Below are positions 29,981-42,584 of a DNA stretch of 44,311 nucleotides, piece by piece (the stretch's first letter is position 1; every line of letters begins with the position of its first letter). The notes under the pieces were generated by a model. That model searched no databases and was not told the DNA's origin. It saw only the letters and a list, made by a program, of their open reading frames with translations. The stretch comes from an uncultured Chloracidobacterium sp. (GTDB lineage: Bacteria; Acidobacteriota; Blastocatellia; Chloracidobacteriales; Chloracidobacteriaceae): positions 1 through 44,311 of the forward strand of contig CALCKX010000072.1 of assembly GCA_937966115.1 (NCBI GenBank), in the 5' to 3' direction. The position numbers and the translations under genes are program-made.

Positions 29981-30002
29981 ACGTAAGGCGTCACTCCGTC
30001 AG

Positions 30003-30020
30003 GGCGCTTTTTCAAGCGCC
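30003..30020 (+). terminator. 7-bp hairpin between the CobW-type and TPR genes
   Basis: GGCGCTT and AAGCGCC enclose TTTC (stem 30003-30009 / 30014-30020). It lies 22 nt after the CobW-type stop and 11 nt before the TPR start, so it could be a weak terminator or a leader hairpin that affects the TPR gene. Confidence 0.4.
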
Positions 30021-30031
30021 GCTCCATTTCT

Positions 30032-31138
30032 ATGCCCGGTAAATCACGCAAGTCGAAAACATCGCCCAAGCCGACGACCCTTTCGCTGGATAAGCTTTTG
30101 GAGAAAGGCGATGCCTGCCTGGAAGAAGGCGATATGGATGAGGCCGAAGCGGCCTACGCCAAGGCGCTCGCGCTGGCCCCGCAGTCGCCGGAGGTTCTGG
30201 TTCGTCTCGGCGCCTTGCTGCTGGACACTGAGCGGTATGAGGAGGGCGTGAATTATTTGCGCGAAGTTGAGCGCCTATCCCCGGAGGACGTGCGCCCGCT
30301 ACACTTGCTAGGCGCCTTCTACATCGAGGAAGGGGAGTTCGACCTCGCCGAGGAGTATTTCAAGCGGGCGCTCAAGCTAGAGCCGAATGAGGGGCTAAGT
30401 CATTATAACTATGGCAATTTTCTATCTGAAGCCGGGCGGTTGCCCGAGGCCGAGGTCGCTTACCGGCGGGCGATTGAGCTAGGGCCGGAAGAGCCGCTGC
30501 ACTACCTTGGGCTGGGCGGGCTGCTGGCCGATATGGAAAAGTATGACGAGGCCCTCAAGCAGTTCCAGATTGCGCTCGAGCTTGATCCCGATGATCCGCG
30601 CATCTACCTCGATCTTGGCGACCTCCTCATGGCGATGGAGCAAACCAAGGAAGCGCTCGAGGCTTACCGCGAGTCGGTGGCGATTGATCCCCATAACCCT
30701 CTGGCGCGGTATGGGCTTGGGGCGGCGCTGCTGGCCGACGGAGAAGCGGTCGCCGCCGCGCGCGAGCTGAAAGACGCGATTGCGGATGGCTTGGAGGTGC
30801 CCCTCGCCTTTGTCAAGCTCGGCGTCGCCCTGCGCATGGCCAACAAGCTGGACGAGTCCCGGGAAGCCTTTCAGCAAGCGTGCGAGCTTCTCGAGGAAGA
30901 GCGTTCAAGCGGGGCCGAGATCGGCGACATGTGCTACGAGGAAACCATCGCGTTGTTGGGGCTGGGGCGCGCCAGCGCCGCCCACGAGGTGGTGGACAAC
31001 CTGCGAGCGGATGACCTCGACCCCCAAGCCGTGGCGGAGCTTAGCGCCGATTTGAGACGCCTGGCGACCCTGGGCCTCGAAGAGGCGAATGAACTGCTCC
31101 GCAAGCTGCGGCTGCCGCCGAAGGAATTGATTCACTAA
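30032..31138 (+). CDS. Tetratricopeptide-repeat protein
   Basis: This 368-residue protein has a Lys/Ser-rich N-terminus (1-20), then about seven or eight TPR units from residue 25 to about 290. The 34-residue register is clear in EEGDMDEAEAAYAKALALAP, FDLAEEYFKRALKLEP, LPEAEVAYRRAIELGP and YDEALKQFQIALELDP. There is no signal peptide or membrane segment, so it is probably a cytosolic scaffold. The last 70 residues are helical but less repeat-like. Its partner is unknown; neighbours give no firm clue. Confidence 0.9.
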   Translation: MPGKSRKSKTSPKPTTLSLDKLLEKGDACLEEGDMDEAEAAYAKALALAPQSPEVLVRLGALLLDTERYEEGVNYLREVERLSPEDVRPLHLLGAFYIEEGEFDLAEEYFKRALKLEPNEGLSHYNYGNFLSEAGRLPEAEVAYRRAIELGPEEPLHYLGLGGLLADMEKYDEALKQFQIALELDPDDPRIYLDLGDLLMAMEQTKEALEAYRESVAIDPHNPLARYGLGAALLADGEAVAAARELKDAIADGLEVPLAFVKLGVALRMANKLDESREAFQQACELLEEERSSGAEIGDMCYEETIALLGLGRASAAHEVVDNLRADDLDPQAVAELSADLRRLATLGLEEANELLRKLRLPPKELIH

Positions 31139-31204
31139 GCGGCGCCCCGGCCGCTGCGCCAGGCAGCGCGCCTGCCGCAGGGTCGCTGGGGGCTGATGGT
31201 CATT

Positions 31205-31234
31205 GCATGAAAGCGTAAGGCATGAAAACGCAAG
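31205..31234 (+). repeat. 15-bp tandem duplication upstream of rpsR
   Basis: GCATGAAAGCGTAAG (31205-31219) is followed by GCATGAAAACGCAAG (31220-31234), 13 of 15 identical. It lies just before the rpsR leader. Confidence 0.8.
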
Positions 31235-31261
31235 CGAGAATAAATAGGAGCGTGTCCAACG

Positions 31262-31585
31262 ATGGCTGAAACGACAGAATCGACCGCTGGAGCGGCGCAA
31301 GCTCAGGAACGGCGTCCGGCCGGCTCGGGAAATGCGGGGCGACGCCCCGGCGGTGGTCGCCCCGGCGGCAACCGCCGCATGGGACGGCGCAAGAAACGGT
31401 GTCCGCTGCTGGAAGCCAAGGTTGATTATATTGACTACAAGGACGTAAAGCTGCTCGAGCGGTTCATTGGCGATAACAAGCGTATTCTGCCGCGCCGCCT
31501 GACAGGCGTGAACACCACCATGCAGCGGCGCTTGGCGCGCGCCATCAAGCGGGCCAAGCACATCGCCTTACTGCCCTACGTCTAG
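31262..31585 (+). CDS. rpsR: 30S ribosomal protein S18, with extended N-terminus
   Basis: S18 pairs with S6 on the 30S platform. The last 65 residues are the classical protein: [20 protein letters not shown], then [20 protein letters not shown] and [12 protein letters not shown]. The first 40 residues are an added Gly/Pro/Arg-rich tail ([19 protein letters not shown]), giving 107 residues against about 75 in E. coli. The gene stands alone: rpsF and rplI, its usual partners, are not beside it. GGAG lies 13 nt before the ATG, a long spacing. Confidence 0.95.
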
Positions 31586-31682
31586 GCCGCTCTGCGCCAG
31601 GCGCGCCGGCGCCGCGCCCGCTTTTGGCGAAGTCCGGGCGCTGCCCTGATTGAGGTCGCCTGGGATGGCGCGCCCGCCTTCT

Positions 31683-31715
31683 AAAGGGGACTCCCAAGCC
31701 AAAGGGACCTCCCAA
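31683..31715 (+). repeat. 15-bp direct repeat with 18-bp period
   Basis: AAAGGGGACTCCCAA (31683-31697) recurs as AAAGGGACCTCCCAA (31701-31715), 13 of 15 identical. It lies in the 235-nt convergent gap between rpsR and the oxidoreductase gene. The rest of that gap holds only imperfect GC-rich inverted repeats. Confidence 0.6.
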
Positions 31716-31820
31716 AAGCGTCTCCACAAGGCGTGGCGTCCAGCAAGCCCGCCTGGGCGGTCGCCGGCCTGGCGCAAGGCAGTCCCCGCGACCGGCGTCG
31801 GCGAGTCAGCGCCGGCCCGG

Positions 31821-32807
31821 TCAAGGCGATAAGCGGACGCGCTGTCCGGTCTGGACGGCGCGTTCCGCGGCGTCGGCGAAGCGCAGCGTCTCAACCACAT
31901 GGGAAAGCGAGGCGTAGGGTCGCCCTGTCCCCGCAATCGTATCCAGAAAGGCAGCGATGTCTTGTCCGAACAAGCCGCTGCGCGGCAGGACGGGGAGTGA
32001 CTCAGCCGCGCTGCCATCGTGGCTGGCGAGCCAGACCTCGCGGTGCGCGCGCCCGGCGAGCGCCCCGTTTTCGCCGGTTACGCGCAGCTCGGCTGCCGGT
32101 CCGGCTTCTTCCGCGCTGGTTAGGATGTCCGTAATTTCTCCCGTCCCGTTGTCGCCAAAGCCAAAGCGCAGGCGAGTTTCCCGGCGGGCGAAGCGCGTCC
32201 CGCTTTCGCCGGAGAAGCTCTCCTCGCCCTCGATCCACGTCGCCTGTCCGACGCAGGCTAGAATTCGGCTGGGCAGGCTGGCTTGCTGAAAAAGCGAAAA
32301 GCCGTGGGCGCGATCAAAGGTCCAGTCTTCGGGCGTAGCGGCGCGATAGCTGACATTGCGCCAGGCAATGGCGCGAATGCGCCCGAGGCGGGGCAGGGCC
32401 TCCCGGAGCGTGATGAACCAGGCCGACAGCAGCTCGATGTGCTCGACGTGCAAGACGACGCCGCGCGCCCGCGCCAGCTCAGCCAGTTGCTCGGCATCGC
32501 CAAGGGAAAGCGCCAGCGGATAATCCACGCTGACCGGCTTGCCCGCTTCAATCGCCGCCCGCGCCATTGGCGCATGATAGGGATTGGATGAGCAAACCAT
32601 GATGGCATTCGCGTCCGGTCGAGCGATGGCCTCTTCCCAATGGTCAGTCGCGGCGGCGGCGATGGGGAAAGCCAGCTCGTAGGCGCGGTCAAAGCTATGC
32701 GACGCCACGACCGCCACCCGCGTGTCAGGGCGCTCATTGAGCTCGCGCAAGCGGGCGCGCGCGACGCGCCCGCTTCCCAGGATGGCAATGCCAAGCACGG
32801 TCGGCAT
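31821..32807 (-). CDS. Gfo/Idh/MocA oxidoreductase resembling cyanobacterial biliverdin reductase
   Basis: This 328-residue NAD(P)-dependent oxidoreductase has a Rossmann N-terminus (ILGSGRVARARL, residues 9-20). The family's catalytic EKP segment reads VDYPLAL here (94-100), as in cyanobacterial BvdR (EYPLAL). It continues with LHVEHIELL (119-127), which also matches BvdR closely, and near the end RSGLFGQDIAAFLD parallels BvdR RRGLFRQDTEAVLD. From memory, Synechocystis BvdR is the same length. So a linear or cyclic tetrapyrrole substrate is a reasonable guess. ATG 32807 was chosen; it lies 10 nt after the acsF stop, so the two are almost certainly cotranscribed. Sugar-dehydrogenase function is the main alternative. 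Confidence 0.75.
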   Translation of the reverse strand: MPTVLGIAILGSGRVARARLRELNERPDTRVAVVASHSFDRAYELAFPIAAAATDHWEEAIARPDANAIMVCSSNPYHAPMARAAIEAGKPVSVDYPLALSLGDAEQLAELARARGVVLHVEHIELLSAWFITLREALPRLGRIRAIAWRNVSYRAATPEDWTFDRAHGFSLFQQASLPSRILACVGQATWIEGEESFSGESGTRFARRETRLRFGFGDNGTGEITDILTSAEEAGPAAELRVTGENGALAGRAHREVWLASHDGSAAESLPVLPRSGLFGQDIAAFLDTIAGTGRPYASLSHVVETLRFADAAERAVQTGQRVRLSP

Positions 32808-32817
32808 GGCGTCGCGC

Positions 32818-33918
32818 CTAGGCCATGGCCGGCTGCGCTCCGCCCTTGACGGAAGCTCCCTTGACCACCGGCGCAACCGGGTATTCGGGAATCGGCGGCG
32901 GCGCGTCCTGGCGAACGCTCATTGCGAACAGCCGCAGGTAATCCGCCGCCATCGCCGCCTTCATCGGCGCGAGCGCCAGCTTGCCGGCGCCGGCCGCCTC
33001 GCGCTCGGTCATCCGCGCGTAGCGTTCGGCCATGCGATCCAGGATGCGAATGAATTTGGGGTTGTCCACATCGAGCCGGAGCCCGAAGACGCGCTGCGCG
33101 TAGGCGTTCGTCTCGCGAATGACTTTTAGATCATATGCCCGCCAGTCCATGCCGATGGAGGCGTAAAAATCCTGCGCCTTGAGGTCGCGCAGCCACATCG
33201 TCACATAGACGGCCAGCGAGAAGAAGCGAATGAGCATCCGATTGACGCCGCCGCTCAGGTAGAGGTTCTTCTGCGCTTCGAGCTGGAGGCCGATGAAGTC
33301 GCCATGCTTGAGCTCATCCTGGCACCAGCCGCCGAAATACTTGAAAATCGGGTGGTACCGATGCTCGGGGCGCGCCTGGAGGTGGGAGTAGATGTTGATA
33401 TACCGGAAGTAGCCGATGACTTCCGATAAATAGGTCGTGTAGAGGATGATCTTCGGGTGCATGCTGACGAATTCCTTTTCGCCCTGGAGCAACTGAAGAT
33501 CGAGGTCGGCGTCAATGTCGCGCATCGCCAAGCGAATGAAGCCGCTGTGCCGCCCCTCGTCGCGCGCCATGAGCCGATAGGTATCGCTCAGAATCGGGTC
33601 TTCAATCCGCTCGGCGATCTCTTTGTAGAGCAGCGCGCCGGAAAACTCGCCCAGACAGCCCCGGATAAGAAAATCCTTGAATGACGCCGGGAGCTTTGAA
33701 AAGTCCTGATCAAAGTCCGGGTCATCGTCGCGCTTGAAGAAGTGCTTGTTGGGGTCGTCGGCGAAGCGCTTATGCATGGCCTTGAACGCATCGGCCATGT
33801 GGTCAAAGCGCAGGGCGTTCATCTTCTTATAATCAGTGACATAAAAACGCGGGCTGATCAGGCTTTTGTCAGCCGCCGCCGCCTTTGTCTCTTGAATGAC
33901 AGATTCCGTGGCAATCAT
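32818..33918 (-). CDS. acsF: Mg-protoporphyrin IX monomethyl ester oxidative cyclase (diiron, oxygen-dependent)
   Basis: AcsF forms the fifth (isocyclic) ring of (bacterio)chlorophyll using O2 and two irons. The 366-residue protein is a clear family member: LISPRFYVTDYKKMN (20-34), then EFSGALLYKE with Glu91, RDEGRHSGF with Glu121 and His124, YLSEVIGY with Glu166, and WCQDELKHGDF with Glu202 and His205. These are the diiron ligands. ATG 33918 has GAGG about 10 nt upstream; the frame is open 13 codons further. The gene marks the host as a chlorophototroph able to make chlorophylls with oxygen. It follows lepB by 105 nt and is followed by the BvdR-like gene. No other bch gene is in the window. 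Confidence 0.95.
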   Translation of the reverse strand: MIATESVIQETKAAAADKSLISPRFYVTDYKKMNALRFDHMADAFKAMHKRFADDPNKHFFKRDDDPDFDQDFSKLPASFKDFLIRGCLGEFSGALLYKEIAERIEDPILSDTYRLMARDEGRHSGFIRLAMRDIDADLDLQLLQGEKEFVSMHPKIILYTTYLSEVIGYFRYINIYSHLQARPEHRYHPIFKYFGGWCQDELKHGDFIGLQLEAQKNLYLSGGVNRMLIRFFSLAVYVTMWLRDLKAQDFYASIGMDWRAYDLKVIRETNAYAQRVFGLRLDVDNPKFIRILDRMAERYARMTEREAAGAGKLALAPMKAAMAADYLRLFAMSVRQDAPPPIPEYPVAPVVKGASVKGGAQPAMA

Positions 33919-34023
33919 GGGGCGCGACCTCGTAGAGGAACCAAAAGTGGAAGCCAAGACTTCGCTTCCAACCTACTTTGCCGCCACCCGGATTTGAAAC
34001 GGAATTTTTGAGGCGCCGGCGGG

Positions 34024-34863
34024 CTATTTCACCAGCGCGCCAAGCCGCTTCCAGCGACCCTTGGAGAAAAACGAGCTAAGTCGCTCCCCCAGCGAAGCCT
34101 GCGGGCTTGGGTCGAATGAGGCATAGACGAAGAGCGGGCGACCGATGACGTAATCGCGCGGAACAGGTCCCCAATATCGGCTATCAAGGCTGTTGTCGCG
34201 GTTGTCGCCCATGGCGAAATAGCAGCCTTCGGGAATCTTGAAGGGGCGCCCGATGCCATAGTGCGGCTCGTTCTTGTAGTCGCGATAGCGCCCGCTGGGC
34301 AGCGGCGCCTCGGCGAGCGGCTCGTCCGCGCGGGCTTCGTACTCGAAGTCCGCGCCCGGACGGTAATAGACCTTCCACTGCGCGCCGTCCGCCGGATAGT
34401 CCTCCAGCGCGTTCAGCCGCCCGCCGTCTTCCAGATCGCTCTCGGCAATGACGCGATGCTCCGGCAGCTCCTTGCCGTCAATGTAAACCCGCTGTCCGCG
34501 AATCTCGATGGTCTCGCCAGGCAGGCCGATGACGCGCTTGACGTAGTTCTGGTCTTCGCTTTGCGGGAACTTGAACACGATGATGTCGCCGCGCCGAATC
34601 GGCCGGTGCGGCGTCAGCCTGTCGAGCGGGAGGCCGCCCTCGTAGCCGAAGATGAATTTGTTGACCAGCAAAAAGTCGCCGGAATAAATCGCGTTGTTCA
34701 TCGAGCCAGTCGGGACATTCACCGACCGCGCGACGAAGGTAATCCCGAAAAGCGCCATGATGAGCGTCGTGATGATCATCTCGACGAACTCGCGCAGCTC
34801 GGAACGCTTAGGCGCGCCGGCCTCGGCGGCGTCTGGCTTGGACTTGGGCGCATCGTCGGGCAT
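34024..34863 (-). CDS. lepB: Signal peptidase I
   Basis: This is a 279-residue inner-membrane serine protease that removes Sec and Tat signal peptides. An N-terminal membrane helix (about residues 28-46) precedes box B with the nucleophile Ser in VPTGSMNNAI. Box C holds FLLVNKF. The general-base Lys is in NYVKRVIGLPGE, and box E is GDNRDNSLDSRYWG near 235. The periplasmic domain has an insertion of about 60 residues before box E. ATG 34863 is chosen; the gene starts 17 nt after the ychF stop, so they probably share an operon. Confidence 0.95.
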   Translation of the reverse strand: MPDDAPKSKPDAAEAGAPKRSELREFVEMIITTLIMALFGITFVARSVNVPTGSMNNAIYSGDFLLVNKFIFGYEGGLPLDRLTPHRPIRRGDIIVFKFPQSEDQNYVKRVIGLPGETIEIRGQRVYIDGKELPEHRVIAESDLEDGGRLNALEDYPADGAQWKVYYRPGADFEYEARADEPLAEAPLPSGRYRDYKNEPHYGIGRPFKIPEGCYFAMGDNRDNSLDSRYWGPVPRDYVIGRPLFVYASFDPSPQASLGERLSSFFSKGRWKRLGALVK

Positions 34864-34880
34864 GGCGGAAGCATCAAACC

Positions 34881-35939
34881 TCAAACATTGAAGCGGAAAT
34901 GGATGATGTCGCCGTCCTGGACGACGTATTCCTTGCCTTCCAGCCGCAGCTTGCCAGCTTCCTTGCACTTGGCTTCCGACCCGTAGGCGATGAAGTCATC
35001 GTAAGCGATGACTTCGGCGCGAATGAAGCCCCGCTCGATGTCGGAATGAATCTTGCCGGCGGCGCGCTGGGCCTTGGTTCCGCGCTGGATAGGCCAGGCG
35101 CGGCACTCATCCTCGCCGGCCGTGAGAAAGCTCATGAGGTCGAGCAAGCCATAGGCCGCCACGATGAAGCGGTCGCGCGCCGGCGCCGGCAAGCCCAGAT
35201 CGCGTAAAAAATCGCCCTGTTCTTCCGGCGCAAGCTGCGCGATGTCCATTTCAACCTGTCCGCACATGGCCGTGACGGCGGGAATCGCGCGCGCCTGGGC
35301 CGCTTTCTGGATGGCCGCCGGGATGCCGGCGGCTATGTCGGCTTCGGCGACGTTGAGCAGAATCATCTGCGGCTTGAGCGACAGAAAGCGGAAGCCGGTC
35401 ATGAGGTGGCGCTCCTCGTCGTCGAAATCCAGCGCCCGGAGCGGCTGCTCGGCATCGAGCGCCGCCTTGCACCGGGCGAAGAGGTCGCGCTCGCGCGGCG
35501 TCGCCTTCTGATCCTTTTTCAGACGCTCCAGGCGGTTTTCGACTTGAATCAAATCCGACAGGATAAGCTCGGCGTCGAAGGCCGCGATGTCGGCGGCCGG
35601 ATTGGTCGGGCGCGTTTCGAGCGGGTCGGGGAAGGCCCGGACGACATGCGCCAGGGCGTCCACGTCGCGCATGGCGGCGACGAGCTTGGCGTCCAGCCCG
35701 CCCGCGCTCGAGCCTTCCGCCGGCCCGGCGACATCCACGAACGCCACTTCGGCGTAGGCGCGCTTCTTCGTTCGGTAAAGGTCGCCGAGCTTATCCACCC
35801 GCGCGTCGGGCACCTTGATGTTGCCCAAGTTCGGACGGTCTTTTCCGCCGTAGCCGCCGACTTCGGCCGCCAGGCCCGTCAGGGCGTTGAACACGGTCGT
35901 CTTGCCGGCGCCGGCAAAGCCGACGATGCCTACTTTCAT
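34881..35939 (-). CDS. ychF: YchF-type P-loop ATPase/GTPase
   Basis: YchF is an Obg-family P-loop protein that binds ribosomes and is linked to oxidative stress and translation. The 352-residue protein has G1 GFAGAGKTT (7-15), where the family more often has NVGKST. G3 is DVAGP. LLNVAE gives the NxxE form at G4, which favours ATP. The C-terminal TGS domain is complete (RAEVIAYDDFIAYGS near 305). It is slightly shorter than the usual 363 residues. lepB follows 17 nt later. Confidence 0.92.
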   Translation of the reverse strand: MKVGIVGFAGAGKTTVFNALTGLAAEVGGYGGKDRPNLGNIKVPDARVDKLGDLYRTKKRAYAEVAFVDVAGPAEGSSAGGLDAKLVAAMRDVDALAHVVRAFPDPLETRPTNPAADIAAFDAELILSDLIQVENRLERLKKDQKATPRERDLFARCKAALDAEQPLRALDFDDEERHLMTGFRFLSLKPQMILLNVAEADIAAGIPAAIQKAAQARAIPAVTAMCGQVEMDIAQLAPEEQGDFLRDLGLPAPARDRFIVAAYGLLDLMSFLTAGEDECRAWPIQRGTKAQRAAGKIHSDIERGFIRAEVIAYDDFIAYGSEAKCKEAGKLRLEGKEYVVQDGDIIHFRFNV

Positions 35940-36002
35940 AGGTTTTTCATTCCAGAGCTTTTTGTTCCAGGGGCTTGCAAGGCGTGATGCATCGGCTCGC
36001 GA

Positions 36003-36050
36003 CGCTCGCTTGGCTGGCGCGGTTGGCTAGCCGCGCCAGCCAAGCGAGCG
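36003..36050. terminator. Perfect 20-bp hairpin over the cytochrome stop codon
   Basis: The arms 36003-36022 and 36031-36050 are exactly complementary, with an 8-nt loop (TTGGCTAG). The minus-strand TAG stop (36027-36029) of the cytochrome gene lies in the loop. The last seven sense codons (RSLGWRG) form one arm, and the 3' untranslated region copies them in reverse. It should end or protect the minus-strand transcript; no U-tract is seen. Confidence 0.75.
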
Positions 36051-36413
36051 GACATACGCCACTAGCGCCTCGATGTCCGTTGCCGAGCCTTTGAACGGCG
36101 GCATCGCGCCCTTCCCCTCGGCGATGGCTTTGGCGAAGTCGCTATCCGCGCGCTGGCTTTGCCAAGCGGCATCGGTCAGGTCAGGGGCGTCGGGCAGGCT
36201 TGGCTTGCCGTCCGCGCCATGGCAGGCGAGGCAGGCGGCATTGTAAAGCCGCTTGCCTCGCGCCAGGCGCTTGGCGGCGGCCTCGTCAGCGACCGCCGCG
36301 CCGCGCCCAGCCGCCAAGCTGCCGCCAAGCGTCGCCAAGAGCACGATGAGCGCCAGCTTTTTTCTAACATTGTTGTTGCTAACATTCTTGGCAGCGGCTT
36401 GCCCAATAGCCAT
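36027..36413 (-). CDS. Small monohaem c-type cytochrome, exported
   Basis: This 128-residue class I cytochrome c has an N-terminal signal (Lys/Asn-rich start, hydrophobic stretch about 20-38). The haem site is CLACH (61-65) and the likely Met ligand is in AMPPFKG near 103. It would carry electrons in the periplasm. GGAGG lies 8 nt before ATG 36413. It is clearly paralogous to the lipoprotein cytochrome encoded just upstream: GKRLYNAACLACHGADG against GRELYNGNACAGCHGDKG, and a shared VAYxRxLG ending. A photosynthetic or respiratory electron donor role is possible but not shown. Confidence 0.9.
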   Translation of the reverse strand: MAIGQAAAKNVSNNNVRKKLALIVLLATLGGSLAAGRGAAVADEAAAKRLARGKRLYNAACLACHGADGKPSLPDAPDLTDAAWQSQRADSDFAKAIAEGKGAMPPFKGSATDIEALVAYVRSLGWRG

Positions 36414-36517
36414 TGGCGGCGTCCTCCATTAGGGAGCGCCTCGACGAAACGCGAAGCCGGGTGGGCCAGCGCCGACCCTGGACGGCTGCGCGCTCGCCGT
36501 TGACGCTTCCGGCGCGG

Positions 36518-36991
36518 TTATTTGCCGGCTTCCTTGCCGAGGAAGCGAATGTAGGCCACCAGCGCCTTGTGCTCCTCATCCGTGCCGTTGCCGCCCTTGA
36601 AGGCCGGCATGCCCTGAGCGGCTTTCGCGCCCTTAAGGGAAGCGATGATTTCCTCATCCTTCTCGTTCTTCTGCCAGTTGGCATCGGTGAATTTCGGAAC
36701 ATTCGGCAATACGCCCTGACCCTTGTCGCCGTGGCAGCCGGCGCAGGCATTGCCGTTGTAAAGCTCGCGACCCTTGACCAGGATCGGATCCTCCGCGCCT
36801 TCGACCGGCTTGGACGGCTCAGCCGGCTTCGCGCCCGTTTCGGTAGCGGGCTTGGTCGGCTCGACCGTCTTGACTTGCTCTTCCTTTGGCTTCATCGGCG
36901 GCGGCGGAACGTTGTCTTTCACGACGCAAGCGGCGAAGAAGCCGGCGGTCGCCACGGCGCAGAGTGATAGGGATCGCTTCAGGTTAGGCAT
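36518..36991 (-). CDS. Lipoprotein monohaem c-type cytochrome
   Basis: This 157-residue lipoprotein cytochrome would be membrane-tethered on the periplasmic side. The signal peptide ends in a lipobox-like FFAAC with Cys22 as the modified residue. A Lys/Pro/Glu-rich tether (about 25-68) leads to the cytochrome domain with CAGCH (83-87), and the Met ligand is in GMPAFKG. AAGGAG lies about 12 nt before ATG 36991. It shares origin with the gene at 36027-36413. Both sit between ychF and glyS, and no quinol oxidase or reaction-centre gene is adjacent. Confidence 0.88.
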   Translation of the reverse strand: MPNLKRSLSLCAVATAGFFAACVVKDNVPPPPMKPKEEQVKTVEPTKPATETGAKPAEPSKPVEGAEDPILVKGRELYNGNACAGCHGDKGQGVLPNVPKFTDANWQKNEKDEEIIASLKGAKAAQGMPAFKGGNGTDEEHKALVAYIRFLGKEAGK

Positions 36992-37032
36992 ACAAACTAA
37001 CGCTCCTTGAAAAAAACAGAATGTCAGGATGT

Positions 37033-37058
37033 TCTTGGCATGGGGTCTTGGCATGGCT
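37033..37058 (+). repeat. 13-bp tandem duplication upstream of the lipoprotein cytochrome
   Basis: TCTTGGCATGGGG (37033-37045) is followed by TCTTGGCATGGCT (37046-37058), 11 of 13 identical, in the 88-nt gap between glyS and the cytochrome gene. Confidence 0.6.
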
Positions 37059-37070
37059 GCGGGGGCTGCG

Positions 37071-37091
37071 CCGGCCGCTTCACAGGGCCGG
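37071..37091 (-). other. 6-bp inverted repeat around the glyS stop codon
   Basis: CCGGCC (37071-37076) and GGCCGG (37086-37091) enclose a 9-nt loop that holds the glyS TGA stop (37080-37082, minus strand). It is short, but it matches the arrangement at other gene ends here. Confidence 0.35.
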
Positions 37092-38525
37092 ACCAAGCCG
37101 TTCGGCGAAAAATTCGGGCAGGCCGGCGATGGGAATGCGCGCTTGCTCCCACGTATCCCGGTCGCGCACCGTCACCGTGTCTTTGAGCGCCGTGGTCACG
37201 GGCGAAGTCGCTGGCTCGCCAGCCTGCGCTTTGCCGACGCCGAGCGTGTCGTAGTCCACCGTGACGCAAAATGGGGTGCCAATTTCGTCCTGCCGCGCGT
37301 AAAGCTTGCCAATCGCCGCCGTATCGTCATAGACGGCGCGGATGCCGCGCCGTTGCAGGTCGGACTTGATGGCTTTGGCTTTTTCCACGAGTTCCGATTT
37401 GTTGCGCGCCAAGGGCAGGACGGCGACCTTGATCGGGGCCAGCGCCGGATGCAGCTTCAGCACGACGCGCGGCTCGCCGTCCGCGCCTGCTTTTTCGCTG
37501 TAAGCGTCCAGGAGAAACGCCAGCGTCGCGCGGTCGGCGCCGGCCGACGGCTCGATGACGTAGGGAACGAATTTCTCGTTCGTGACCGGATCGCGGTACA
37601 GCAGGCTCTGGGTTGAATGCTCGTTGTGCAGTCGCCACTTTTCCTGCTTGCCCTTGGAATGCACGCTGAGATCGTAGTCAGTGCGGTTGGCGATGCCTTC
37701 GAGTTCATCCCACTGCTTTTCCGCGTCCTCGCGCTCCGGGAAGAAGCGGTACTGCAAGTCGGTGCAGGCGCGGGCGTAATGCGCCAGCTCGGCGGGCTGT
37801 TGAACGTAGCGGCGCAGGTTTTCCGGCCGAATGCCATAGCGCAGATACCAGTTGTGGCGCTCTTCGATCCAGTGGGCGTGCCAGTCCTCATCCGTGCCGG
37901 GCTTGCAGAAAAACTCGATTTCCATCTGCTCGAACTCGCGGGTGCGGAAGGTGAAGTTGCCCGGCACGATTTCATTGCGAAACGCCTTGCCAATCTGGGC
38001 GATGCCAAAGGGCACCTTGCGCCAGCGGGAGTCCACAATGGCTTTGAAGTTGACGAAGATGCTCTGCGCCGTTTCGGGACGCAGGTACGCGAGCGCGGCG
38101 TCTTCCTCGACCGGGCCGACCTGAGTCTTGAACATCAGGTTAAAGGCGCGCGGCTCGGTTAGGTTGGCGCTGCATTCGATGACTTTGCGCTTGTAGCGCG
38201 GGCAGTCAAGCTCGTAGGCTTTGTCGGCGCGGAAACGCCCCTTGCACTCCCGGCAGTCTGCCAGCGGATCGCTGAACGTCGCCTCGTGACCAGAGTATTT
38301 CCATACAAGGCGATTCATCAGGATCGCGCCGTCCATGCCCTCGATGTCGTCGCGATCATAGACGACGGCTTTCCACCAGGCGCGCTTGACATTGTTTTTG
38401 AGCTCGACGCCGAGCGGGCCGTAATCCCACGTCGAGCCGAGCCCGCCGTAGATTTCGCTCGCAGGGAAAATGAACCCGCGTCGCTTACACAGGGAAACAA
38501 TCGTTCCAATGTCAACCGTCGCCAT
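37080..38525 (-). CDS. glyS: Glycyl-tRNA synthetase, alpha2 (eukaryote/archaea-like) type
   Basis: This 481-residue class II synthetase is the single-chain homodimer type, not the alpha2beta2 GlyQS type. Class II blocks are GLGSTWDYGPLG near residue 30, RPETAQSIFVNF (motif 2 region), AFRNEIVPGNFTFRTREFEQME near 200, and the C-terminal anticodon-binding domain (LHPALAPIKVAVLPL). A zinc-like cluster is visible in ADCRECKGRF and ELDCP. ATG 38525 starts the protein at the conserved IVSLCKRRGFIFP block. pilT lies 215 nt upstream on the same strand. Confidence 0.95.
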   Translation of the reverse strand: MATVDIGTIVSLCKRRGFIFPASEIYGGLGSTWDYGPLGVELKNNVKRAWWKAVVYDRDDIEGMDGAILMNRLVWKYSGHEATFSDPLADCRECKGRFRADKAYELDCPRYKRKVIECSANLTEPRAFNLMFKTQVGPVEEDAALAYLRPETAQSIFVNFKAIVDSRWRKVPFGIAQIGKAFRNEIVPGNFTFRTREFEQMEIEFFCKPGTDEDWHAHWIEERHNWYLRYGIRPENLRRYVQQPAELAHYARACTDLQYRFFPEREDAEKQWDELEGIANRTDYDLSVHSKGKQEKWRLHNEHSTQSLLYRDPVTNEKFVPYVIEPSAGADRATLAFLLDAYSEKAGADGEPRVVLKLHPALAPIKVAVLPLARNKSELVEKAKAIKSDLQRRGIRAVYDDTAAIGKLYARQDEIGTPFCVTVDYDTLGVGKAQAGEPATSPVTTALKDTVTVRDRDTWEQARIPIAGLPEFFAERLGPAL

Positions 38526-38669
38526 CGCGTGTGGCTACCTCTGCGTCAGGTCAGCGCGCTTGCGCTCATCTACGGCGCGCCTTCAGCGCGGCGCAAGCGT
38601 CGGTCAGGACATAAGTGAGCAACTATACACGGCGACGCCGGGCTTGTCGCGCCGTTTTCGCACGCGCGG

Positions 38670-38685
38670 GCCTGGCCGGCCAGGC
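38670..38685. repeat. Perfect 16-bp palindrome between pilT and glyS
   Basis: GCCTGGCCGGCCAGGC reads the same on both strands. It lies downstream of the pilT stop (38741) and upstream of the glyS start (38525). It could be a repressor site or part of a terminator; with no loop, an operator-like site is more natural. The rest of the 215-nt gap shows no gene. Confidence 0.5.
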
Positions 38686-38740
38686 GGGTTTGGCCGCGGG
38701 CGGGCGCCGCTCGCGCCAAGGTCAGCGGTGGCCTTCGAGG

Positions 38741-40426
38741 TCAGGCGCTGGCGCTCGCCAGGTTCGTGAGAAAGCTCACGTCAAGGTTGTGCCGCTTGAG
38801 GAGCCCTTCAAAGCCGGTTTTGTCCACGGCCTTGATGTAGGCCTCTTGCGACTCGACCCGCTTGTTTTTGACATGGTCGAGCAGCGCGTCGTTGAGCGTG
38901 ACATTGCCCTTGGCCTTGCCGGTCTGCATCGCCGAGGGAATCTGGAACGTCTTGCCTTCGCGGATGAGGTTGGCGATGCCCGTGTCGCAGATGAGCGTTT
39001 CGAGCGCCGCCACGCGCCCGCCGCCGATTTTCTTGCACAGCGTCTGCGCGATGACGCCCTTGAGCGACTCTGACAGCATCACTCGAATCTGCGCCTGCCG
39101 GTCGGATGGGAACTGGTCGATGATGCGGTCCACGGTCGAGGGAGCGGTCGAGGTGTGGAGCGTCCCAAAGACTAGGTGTCCGGTTTCAGCGGTTTCGATG
39201 GCAATCGAAATCGTTTCGAGGTCGCGCATTTCGCCGACCAGAACGATGTCAGGGTCTTCGCGCAGGGCGGCGCGCAGGGCGTCCTTGAACGAGTCGGTGT
39301 GGTTGTGAACCTCGCGCTGATTGATAAGGCACTGCTTGTTTTCGTGGACGAACTCGATTGGGTCCTCGATGGTGATGATGTGGTCGCGGCGGTTGCGGTT
39401 GATGAAGTCGATGAGCGCGCACAGCGTCGTGGATTTGCCGCTCCCGGTCGGGCCGGTGACCAGCACCAGCCCCTTGCTCAGATAGCACAGCTTGAGGATT
39501 TCCTTGGATAGCCCGAGCATCTCGGCCGTGAGAATTTTGCTCGGAATGACGCGGAACACGCCGCCCATGCCTTTGCGGTCCATGAAGACATTGCAGCGGA
39601 AGCGCGCGACGTCGCCGAACTCATAGGCGAAGTCGGTGTCATGCCGGCGGTTGAATTCCTCGCGGTTCTTATCGGGCATCAGCTCCCACAGAATGCGCTC
39701 GGTGTCGCTCGCCATGAGCGGCTGCCCTTCGTAACCCTGCATGACCACCATATCGCCATCCAGGCGCAGCATCGGCGGCATCGAGGCTGAGATGTGCATG
39801 TCGGACGCCTCAAGCTCGAGTTGCTTTTCGAAAAGCTTGTCAATCTCGAGCGCGCCGCGCTTGCGCAGGTGAACAGCCGTCCCCTGACCCATCGGGGAAG
39901 GCGCGGACGGCGGCGGCTGATGCGAGCCGGTCGGCGGCGCGACCGGCGGCTGCTTGCCCGACGCCGCGCCTGAAAACGCCATCCCGGATGACGGCGTCAG
40001 CGGGCGCGGCGTCGGGCGCGCCGGCGTGGCGCTGGGCATCGGCGCGAAGTGGCCTGACGCTCGCGCGACTGGCGGCGACGGCATCGGCGCGCTTGGCGTG
40101 GCGGGCTTGGCGGCGGCGGCTTCGACCGGCGCGAAGGCGACCTTCATGCCTCCGCCTTCTTTGGTGATCGAGACATCGAAGGTGCCAGCCCCATTGACGC
40201 TAAGCCGAAAGTTGGTGGTTGGCTGGCTCATGAGAGCCGTTTTTTTGTCATCGGGAATATGCGGTTGGAGGAGGCGATAAATGTCAAACGGCGTCATCGG
40301 GCTGCGGCTGAGTTCCGTCGCCCCGGATGAGTTGATCACTGTCGGAGCTTTGCCCGCCTGCAGAATGAGCTGGTCAGCGCCCGCCATCCGCGGGTCTTTG
40401 AGCATGCTTTCAATTGTCGCCGACAT
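38741..40426 (-). CDS. pilT: PilT-type pilus retraction ATPase with an extra N-terminal PilT-N-like domain
   Basis: PilT disassembles type IV pili for twitching motility. The C-terminal 370 residues are a full PilT: the N-domain ASDMHISASMPPMLRLDGD, then Walker A VTGPTGSGKSTT, the Asp box with ITIEDPIEFVHEN, Walker B DPDIVLVGEMRD, the His box HLVFGTLHT, and GIANLIREGKTFQIPSAMQ near the end. The first 105 residues look like a worn second copy of the N-domain (ADQLILQAGKAPTVINSSG; PFDIYRLLQPHIPDD), followed by a Pro/Ala-rich linker of about 80 residues. Total length is 561, against about 350 for PilT. GGAGGG precedes ATG 40426. It is divergent from the export operon. Confidence 0.92.
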   Translation of the reverse strand: MSATIESMLKDPRMAGADQLILQAGKAPTVINSSGATELSRSPMTPFDIYRLLQPHIPDDKKTALMSQPTTNFRLSVNGAGTFDVSITKEGGGMKVAFAPVEAAAAKPATPSAPMPSPPVARASGHFAPMPSATPARPTPRPLTPSSGMAFSGAASGKQPPVAPPTGSHQPPPSAPSPMGQGTAVHLRKRGALEIDKLFEKQLELEASDMHISASMPPMLRLDGDMVVMQGYEGQPLMASDTERILWELMPDKNREEFNRRHDTDFAYEFGDVARFRCNVFMDRKGMGGVFRVIPSKILTAEMLGLSKEILKLCYLSKGLVLVTGPTGSGKSTTLCALIDFINRNRRDHIITIEDPIEFVHENKQCLINQREVHNHTDSFKDALRAALREDPDIVLVGEMRDLETISIAIETAETGHLVFGTLHTSTAPSTVDRIIDQFPSDRQAQIRVMLSESLKGVIAQTLCKKIGGGRVAALETLICDTGIANLIREGKTFQIPSAMQTGKAKGNVTLNDALLDHVKNKRVESQEAYIKAVDKTGFEGLLKRHNLDVSFLTNLASASA

Positions 40427-40491
40427 GGCGCGCCCTCCGCTTGGGACACAGGTTTAGGTGGTGAAGTCGGGTGGAATCCAAAGCCGCTCGG

Positions 40492-40527
40492 GATGCTTCG
40501 GCGCTTTGGGATTCTTCAGCGCTTTGG
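40492..40527 (+). repeat. 18-bp tandem duplication
   Basis: GATGCTTCGGCGCTTTGG (40492-40509) is followed by GATTCTTCAGCGCTTTGG (40510-40527), 16 of 18 identical, in the pilT / export-operon gap. Confidence 0.85.
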
Positions 40528-40613
40528 ACTCTAGTCTGTTCATTTAGCCTTGCGCAAGGAAGGAACCAAGAAAGCGGCTAAGGCTGCCTGACCAGGGCCG
40601 CCCTGGGCGGCAG

Positions 40614-40641
40614 TTGCCCTTTGAAGTCGCTTTTGTAATCT
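40614..40641 (+). promoter_or_regulatory. Candidate sigma-70 promoter for the export operon
   Basis: TTGCCC (40614-40619), a 16-nt spacer and TAATCT (40636-40641) lie about 125 nt before ATG 40767. The GCCGCC-CTG-GGCGGC inverted repeat abuts the -35 box, where a repressor could bind. Confidence 0.5.
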
Positions 40642-40766
40642 AGGCTCCCGCAAAAGAGATGAACGTGCGGAATCTCGCACAGCGGCTTCGTCGCGCTCGG
40701 CTACAAAGGCAAAGCTCAGCTTCACTCTTCGGCAGACTGCGGGCTTGGAAGGAGAGTACGGTCATC

Positions 40767-42584
40767 ATGGGTGACGCCGCAATCCAAGGCGCGACAGCCG
40801 CTTTTTCGGATTCCAGTGGAGATCACACGCACCCAACGCCTGTCCAGCGGCTGTGGCATCTGCTGTCGCTCGATTCGCGCGACCTGCTGGCCGTCCTCGC
40901 CTACACGACAGTCGCGGGTCTGTTTTCTCTGGCCGTTCCCATCACGGCTCAGGTGCTCGTCAATAACATCGCGCAGGGGCAGTCGCTGCAACAGCTCGTG
41001 GTGTTATCCTCCCTGGTCCTGTTTTTCCTCAGCTTCGCCGGCCTTTTGCGGCTCTTTCAATTGGTACTGCTGGAACGTCTCCAGCAGCGCATCTTCGTCC
41101 GGGTGGCGATCAACCTGGGCAATCGCCTGCCGCGGGTGCAGCTTGCGGCGCTGACCAGCGAATACGCTCCGGAACTGGTCAACCGCTTCTTCGATGTCAT
41201 CAACATTCAGAAAGCCTTTGCCAAGCTGGCGCTGGATGGCCTCGACGCCCTTCTCAAGGTCTTTGTCGGGCTGCTGCTGCTCGCCTTCTACAGCCCGATT
41301 CTGCTGGGCTTTGACCTGGCTGTGGTTTTGTCGGGGCTGTTCATCATCTTCGTGCTCGGAATCAACGGGCTGCGCACGAGCATTCTGGAGTCGAAGAAAA
41401 AATACAAACTCGCCGCTTGGCTCGAGGAGCTGGCGCGTTGCCACATTAGTTTCAAAATGAGCGGCACGCTCGCGTTTCTGTCCGAGCGAACCGATGCCCT
41501 GGCCGTCGCCTACCTGAAAGCCCGCCGCTCTCACTTCACGGTGCTGTTCCGCCAGGCCGTCGGAAACTACTTTTTCTATGCGCTGGCGAGCGCTGGCATC
41601 CTGGCCGTTGGCGGCTGGCTGGTGATCAACCGGCAGATCACCATCGGGCAGTTGGTGGCAGCCGAGATCGTCGTGGTGTCAGTGTTGGCCGGGCTAGACA
41701 AAGTCATCAGCCAGCTCGAACACGTTTACGACCTGCTGACCGCCCTCGATAAAGTGGGTCATATCGAGGACCTTCCTATCGAGCGGGCGACCGGCACTGA
41801 AATCCCTGTTCGGGAAGAGGGCGCGTCGGTGCTGTGTCGCAACGTGCGCTTCAGTTACTACTCTGGGGCGGAGGTGTTGTCCGGGGTGGAGCTGAGCGTG
41901 AAGCCGGGCGAATGGGTGAGCGTCGTCGGGCTGAGCGGCGCCGGCAAGTCAACGCTGATGGCGCTGATTTGCGGGCTGCTCGAGCCATCCCACGGCACGG
42001 TGGAGATCAACGGCGTGGACGTTCGGGACGCCAACCTGGACGCGCTGCGACTGGTGGTCGGCATGGTGGGTGACCGCGAGGAAATTTTCGAGGGCACCAT
42101 TGAAGATAACCTCCGGGTTGGAGCGGGCTGGCTGACGCAGGAGGACCTCCGCTGGGCGATTGACCTGATGCAGCTCTCCGATGAGCTGGCCGTCCTGCCG
42201 CAGGGACTGCAAACGCCGCTGGTAAGCGGCGGCTACAACTTGTCCCGCGGCCAAATTCAGCGTCTGCTGCTGGCGCGAACCATCGCCCGCCACCCCAAGC
42301 TGCTCATTCTGGACGAAGCTTTCATGGGGATTGACGAGCGCTCCAAGCTCAAAATCCTTGACGCCATTTATGACCGCGCGCACCGCTGGACCATCATTGA
42401 CATTTCGCATGACGCCGAGGTGGTCATTCGCTCGTCGGTCGTCCACGTTCTCGATAAAGGAGTCATCGTTGAGTCCGGCTCGCCGGAGGAGTTGTCGTGG
42501 CGGCGCAGCGGCGCGTTCGCCTCGCTGTTCCCGGAGGTGTCGCGCCAGCTCGTCGGGAAACGGCTAACCGCAGGCAAGGGATGA
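40767..42584 (+). CDS. ABC exporter, fused permease and ATPase (type I secretion-like)
   Basis: This 605-residue half-transporter would act as a dimer in the inner membrane. About six membrane helices occupy residues 35-300. The ATPase (about 355-600) has Walker A GLSGAGKST, signature YNLSRGQIQRL (Gly replaced by Arg in LSGGQ), Walker B LLILDEAFMGID with the catalytic Glu, and H-loop DISHDAE. It lacks the C39 peptidase domain of bacteriocin exporters. GGAAGGAGAG precedes ATG 40767; an earlier ATG at 40659 is less likely. The adaptor gene follows 36 nt later, so the pair forms a type I exporter; the substrate is not encoded here. Confidence 0.9.
   Translation: MGDAAIQGATAAFSDSSGDHTHPTPVQRLWHLLSLDSRDLLAVLAYTTVAGLFSLAVPITAQVLVNNIAQGQSLQQLVVLSSLVLFFLSFAGLLRLFQLVLLERLQQRIFVRVAINLGNRLPRVQLAALTSEYAPELVNRFFDVINIQKAFAKLALDGLDALLKVFVGLLLLAFYSPILLGFDLAVVLSGLFIIFVLGINGLRTSILESKKKYKLAAWLEELARCHISFKMSGTLAFLSERTDALAVAYLKARRSHFTVLFRQAVGNYFFYALASAGILAVGGWLVINRQITIGQLVAAEIVVVSVLAGLDKVISQLEHVYDLLTALDKVGHIEDLPIERATGTEIPVREEGASVLCRNVRFSYYSGAEVLSGVELSVKPGEWVSVVGLSGAGKSTLMALICGLLEPSHGTVEINGVDVRDANLDALRLVVGMVGDREEIFEGTIEDNLRVGAGWLTQEDLRWAIDLMQLSDELAVLPQGLQTPLVSGGYNLSRGQIQRLLLARTIARHPKLLILDEAFMGIDERSKLKILDAIYDRAHRWTIIDISHDAEVVIRSSVVHVLDKGVIVESGSPEELSWRRSGAFASLFPEVSRQLVGKRLTAGKG

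Follow-up and report, generated by a model that had tools for sequence, protein, structure and literature searches.

A perfect hairpin around a cytochrome c stop codon in Chloracidobacterium and its probable recent origin

Introduction

How does a long perfect inverted repeat come to enclose the stop codon of a protein-coding gene, and does it serve any purpose once it is there? This question is raised by the 3' end of a c-type cytochrome gene in an uncultured Chloracidobacterium, a photosynthetic hot-spring bacterium. The gene lies on contig CALCKX010000072.1 (assembly GCA_937966115.1), of which we analysed a stretch of 44,311 nucleotides, hereafter the window. Long perfect stems are not easily made by point mutation, and the birth of terminator-like hairpins is rarely caught. 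An earlier note on this DNA, written from the sequence alone, described the repeat as an exact copy, placed directly after the stop codon, of the last seven codons of the gene, and read it as a template-switch duplication kept as a terminator or as a protector of the mRNA end. Here, we follow up this reading against six further genomes of the genus, which together with the window genome make a set of seven. Since the window genome is a 2.8-Mb draft assembly (151 contigs, 85%-complete), the hairpin is known from a single assembly.

Results

Geometry and stability of the hairpin

A repeat search found positions 36003-36022 and 36031-36050 to be perfect reverse complements of 20 nt each (100% complementary), with 8 nt between them. 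Read along the minus strand, the hairpin is CGCTCGCTTGGCTGGCGCGG-CTAGCCAA-CCGCGCCAGCCAAGCGAGCG, and it is composed as follows:

36003..36050, minus strand: perfect 20-bp hairpin with an 8-nt loop (repeat search; minus-strand RNA fold of -55.1 kcal/mol, z = -5.6 against dinucleotide shuffles)
36031..36050, minus strand: upstream coding arm, which takes up 20 nt of the seven final codons (21 nt, RSLGWRG) (sequence, ORF)
36023..36030, minus strand: loop CTAGCCAA, with the TAG stop at 36027-36029 (sequence)
36003..36022, minus strand: non-coding downstream arm, which shares 36003-36012, its outer 10 nt, with the sister genome G002 (comparison with relatives)

The 20-bp repeat, the 8-nt loop holding a minus-strand TAG and the protein-coding nature of one arm, which is the end of the cytochrome c gene, are therefore exactly as first described. 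In the loop, the final base of the seventh codon is followed by the TAG and then by CCAA. Consequently, the supposed exact copy of the last seven codons holds for 20 of their 21 nt, the 21st being in the loop, and the copy does not directly follow the TAG, as had been stated, but begins 4 nt past it. The claim that such a stem is far beyond chance is borne out: the number expected is ~1.5e-6 for the window and 9e-5 for a genome of 2.8 Mb with the same composition, and in 1.02 Mb of first-order Markov sequence no perfect stem was longer than 12 bp.

Genes around the hairpin

The hairpin joins the end of the cytochrome gene to a short gap in front of a co-directional gene:

36518..37096, minus strand: upstream paralogous cytochrome c gene (Pfam; similarity search)
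36027..36413, minus strand: c-type cytochrome gene of 128 aa (Pfam PF13442 and PF00034)
35940..36026, minus strand: 87-nt gap between cytochrome c and ychF, with no stop in the reading frame that the two genes share (translation)
34881..35939, minus strand: co-directional ychF GTPase gene (Pfam PF06071)

The product of 36027-36413 (minus strand) matches Cytochrome_CBB3 with an E-value of 1.9e-15. Along the minus strand, the order is a glycyl-tRNA synthetase-like gene, a cytochrome c gene, the cytochrome c gene with the hairpin, ychF and a signal peptidase gene. The two adjacent paralogous cytochrome genes (36027-37096, minus strand) form a pair that is retained across the genus. By eye, the protein encoded at 32818-33957 (minus strand) looks like AcsF, which in bacteriochlorophyll synthesis is the aerobic magnesium-protoporphyrin ester cyclase. 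An Rfam search of 30000-42000 gave no match at the gathering score.

The cytochrome c gene and ychF share a reading frame, in which the TAG of the loop is the sole stop between them; the open frame of ychF extends to 381 aa, as against 352. As the frame is open, we considered stop-codon read-through into a cytochrome-YchF fusion. We judge it unlikely, because it would join an exported haem protein to a cytosolic GTPase and because the arrangement is kept in no relative.

The same junction in six relatives

In a ychF tree, the window genome pairs with G002 (support 85/93; nucleotide identity 89%), a genome of 3.4 Mb in 390 contigs and the nearest relative in the set. The junction was placed by pairwise alignment, since a MAFFT multiple alignment misplaced it. 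At the same site, G002 carries a perfect 10-bp palindrome, CGCTCGCTTG-C-CAAGCGAGCG, and its alignment with the window has a single gap of 27 nt, which falls within the palindrome, while directly downstream 30 of 35 bases are identical. The window sequence is thus the palindrome of G002 with 27 nt inserted at its centre, an insert that doubles the stem and brings the TAG. Two differences from relatives mark the junction:

36014..36040, minus strand: 27-nt segment at the centre of the 10-bp palindrome of G002, absent from six of six relatives, with a 1-nt ambiguity of placement (pairwise alignment; six junction sequences)
36006..36008, minus strand: CGA at the position of the TGA that ends the cytochrome gene in five relatives (junction comparison)

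The five other relatives lack the insert and have their TGA stop where G002 has CGA; the cytochrome frame of G002 passes this old stop position and ends at a later TAA. The junctions of G006 and G003 are imperfect palindromes (e.g. CGCTCCCTCGCCAAGTGAGCG), and the outgroup genomes have imperfect palindromes or none at the site. No orthologous cytochrome-ychF junction in the relatives has a comparable stem, and ychF lies within ~200 nt of the junction in G002, G003, G005 and G006. A scan of GTDB genome contigs for named relatives returned a distant cytochrome only.

Since the sister has a 10-bp palindrome and the other five genomes are devoid of the insert, this comparison makes the hairpin lineage-specific, recently formed and something other than a single plain copy of the seven final codons. 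The earlier note had proposed this comparison and counted an absence from close relatives, together with the lack of an RNA 3' end at the repeat, against its own reading. The long stem is indeed absent from all six, and the sister has a shorter perfect palindrome in its place.

It follows that the outer 10 bp of both arms are older than the hairpin and that only the central 27 nt are new. Within these, the two inner arms are reverse complements of each other, and the segment supplies the present stop close to the position of the ancestral one. The search for a local donor of the inner arm and loop gave no convincing match; the best was 10 nt in the ychF start of G002, equalled by 3.9% of random 18-mers.

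Hairpins at other gene ends

Genome statistics were taken from 1.02 Mb of sampled stretches, counting perfect stems of at least 12 bp with loops of 3-10 nt. We found 39 such stems, against 2 in first-order Markov sequence of the same length. With ORFs called heuristically and a hairpin between convergent genes counted twice, 26 hairpin-end pairs fell 0-100 nt after gene ends, compared with 3 in the final 100 nt of genes. Among 26 genes with such a stem, the 8 nt after it held at least four T in 7 and fewer than four in 19. Long hairpins occurred in 22 of 338 convergent gaps and 17 of 438 co-directional ones, a weak excess. Across bacterial phyla, perfect inverted repeats are enriched just past stop codons (PMC13155455).

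By the same measure, the window genome is about six times denser in perfect stems of at least 12 bp than a related complete genome, G001 (39 per 1.02 Mb versus 2 per 0.30 Mb). Two of the 39 stems reach 21 bp; these perfect hairpins (L101:17318-17362 and L127:7188-7234) lie shortly after gene ends, where the hairpins of the relatives differ and are mostly shorter. At three gene ends besides that of the cytochrome gene, the hairpins that relatives carry in similar positions are not the same, and several of them have U-tracts; gene-end hairpins thus have a rapid turnover.

A 16-nt segment that is absent from G002 (L181) makes a perfect 12-bp hairpin past a gene at L067:9465-9492. This segment resembles a reverse-complement copy of the adjoining sequence and completes the inverted repeat; this U-less hairpin may represent a second hairpin birth.

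Discussion

Origin of the hairpin

The origin that we consider most likely, judging from the seven junctions, is that a 27-nt palindromic insertion enlarged a short palindrome through a replication error of the kind seen at quasipalindromes or in template switching. The most parsimonious order would begin with an imperfect palindrome containing the TGA stop. In the common ancestor with G002, TGA would then have changed to CGA, so that the stop was lost and the opposite arm matched. The palindromic insertion would have followed in the window lineage, where TAG was gained.

A shorter palindrome (G002) or an imperfect one (G006, G003) at the same site is what a quasipalindrome origin calls for. 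In E. coli, template switching associated with quasipalindromes perfects and enlarges inverted repeats (PMC7202029), and template switching can create hairpins; long perfect RNA stems have been suggested to arise in this way (PMC8794818). Our case resembles those described there in its passage from an imperfect to a perfect and then an enlarged repeat, which can be traced on a tree of close relatives, and in the confinement of the change to the palindrome. It differs in that no convincing nearby source of the inner arm and loop was found, and we therefore infer the copying step rather than regard it as proven. The template-switch duplication first proposed therefore fits as a type of origin, given the palindromes of the relatives, but not as one copying of the last seven codons.

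Terminator, mRNA 3'-end barrier or neutral by-product

A GC-rich stem-loop at a gene end (here 20 bp, -55 kcal/mol) is also what characterizes an intrinsic (Rho-independent) terminator. In contrast to such a terminator, the present structure lacks a U-tract, has a 20-bp stem and overlaps the stop codon. The tail after the stem, TCGCGAGC, has one T in 8 nt, and because of this missing U-tract the stem is unlikely to end transcription alone. A scan for canonical terminators and promoters did not return the stem among its sites, the total of which was no higher than in shuffled sequence. Together with the absence of the stem from the sister and the five other relatives, and a co-directional gene only 87 nt further on, these data do not support the proposal that the repeat was kept as a terminator.

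One might still argue that a stem of this stability halts RNA polymerase by itself, as a stand-alone U-less ('I-shaped') intrinsic terminator, a debated class. The great stability of the stem and its position at a gene end would fit, as would the replacement, elsewhere in this genome, of the relatives' U-tract terminators by a longer, U-poor stem. We nevertheless find this improbable, given the single T in the 8 nt past the stem and the lack of a comparable stem at the junction in relatives with ychF within ~200 nt (G002, G003, G005, G006). Moreover, under coupled transcription and translation, a ribosome positioned at the stop codon within the loop would cover the stem (cf. PMC7858274).

If the hairpin has a role at all, we infer that it is most likely that of a barrier at the mRNA 3' end. 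This preference rests on the lack of a U-tract, the absence of such a stem in the relatives, the presence of Rho and the U-less ends elsewhere in the genome. Rho (PF07497 over the cut-off) is present in all seven genomes. The stem would form in the mRNA once the last ribosome leaves the stop codon; it would then block 3' exonucleases, so that transcripts terminated by Rho or cleaved would be trimmed back to it, and it would separate the cytochrome c mRNA from the downstream ychF mRNA. On this account, the hairpin probably only guards or marks the mRNA end. Since a ribosome ending in the loop is expected to melt the stem (cf. PMC7858274), the structure would exist only on ribosome-free RNA.

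Parallels exist in other bacteria. Intercistronic stabilizing hairpins are known from the puf operon of Rhodobacter and from the REP elements of E. coli. Like these, the present stem lies between co-directional genes and could give segmental mRNA stability; unlike them, it overlaps coding sequence, is not conserved and is not repeated. In E. coli, according to the summary given in PMC13289151, GC-rich hairpins at RNA ends without a U-tract are read as the product of Rho termination followed by trimming to the stem, and similar U-less (HS-U-lack) ends are common in the GC-rich Streptomyces (PMC8269248). Our hairpin shares with these ends a stable GC-rich stem after the gene, the lack of a U-tract, Rho and a GC-rich genome, but departs from them in having its stop in the loop and a coding arm.

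The main rival to a role at the 3' end is neutral existence, i.e., a by-product of palindrome mutagenesis with no RNA function, tolerated because the stop was restored near its original place. As the stem is conserved in none of the relatives, whose orthologous cytochrome-ychF junctions have nothing comparable, it may be neutral. Furthermore, without the TAG of the loop the frame into ychF would be open, and therefore the stop could by itself account for the retention of the insertion. On the other hand, long hairpins in this genome cluster past gene ends, which is not obviously neutral unless coding sequence rejects them. Overall, we regard a purely neutral hairpin as rather unlikely.

Two further explanations fare far worse. 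One is that a dispersed palindromic repeat, similar to a REP, a MITE or an uptake signal, entered the gene end. This might account for an insertion at the very centre of a palindrome, and one 11-nt word is common to this hairpin and another of 21 bp. Yet the arm has no other copy in the genome at up to 2 mismatches, the 35-mer occurs at this locus only across the seven genomes (up to 3 mismatches), hairpin arms resemble each other no more than shuffled arms do, and no over-represented word of the uptake type stands out. This explanation is thus largely refuted, and we give it very little credence. An artefact of assembly or amplification, for which an 85%-complete assembly in 151 contigs gives some ground, seems more remote still: synteny is unbroken on both sides and into ychF, a fold-back chimera would run on in reverse order, and a feature of 48 nt is short enough for short reads.

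Taking the two parts together, we consider it reasonably probable, from the sequence comparisons, that the hairpin arose by a 27-nt palindromic insertion and now acts, if at all, at the mRNA 3' end, as a barrier that separates cytochrome c from ychF.

Significance

The hairpin itself is of an ordinary kind; what is unusual is how clearly its recent origin can be read. A bolder proposal is that replication errors extending palindromes give rise again and again to new hairpins at gene ends in this lineage, at a rate that lets sister species differ, and that here one such error removed the stop (TGA to CGA) as the palindrome was perfected, before a second one re-set it in the loop. We hold this to be unlikely; if true, the growth of the hairpin would itself have reset the end of the cytochrome gene.

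Across seven genomes, imperfect, short perfect and long perfect stages of a palindrome are found at one gene end, together with a stop that was lost and regained. These staged palindromes therefore make the birth of a hairpin by template switching testable, in a bacterium with many U-less hairpins at its gene ends.
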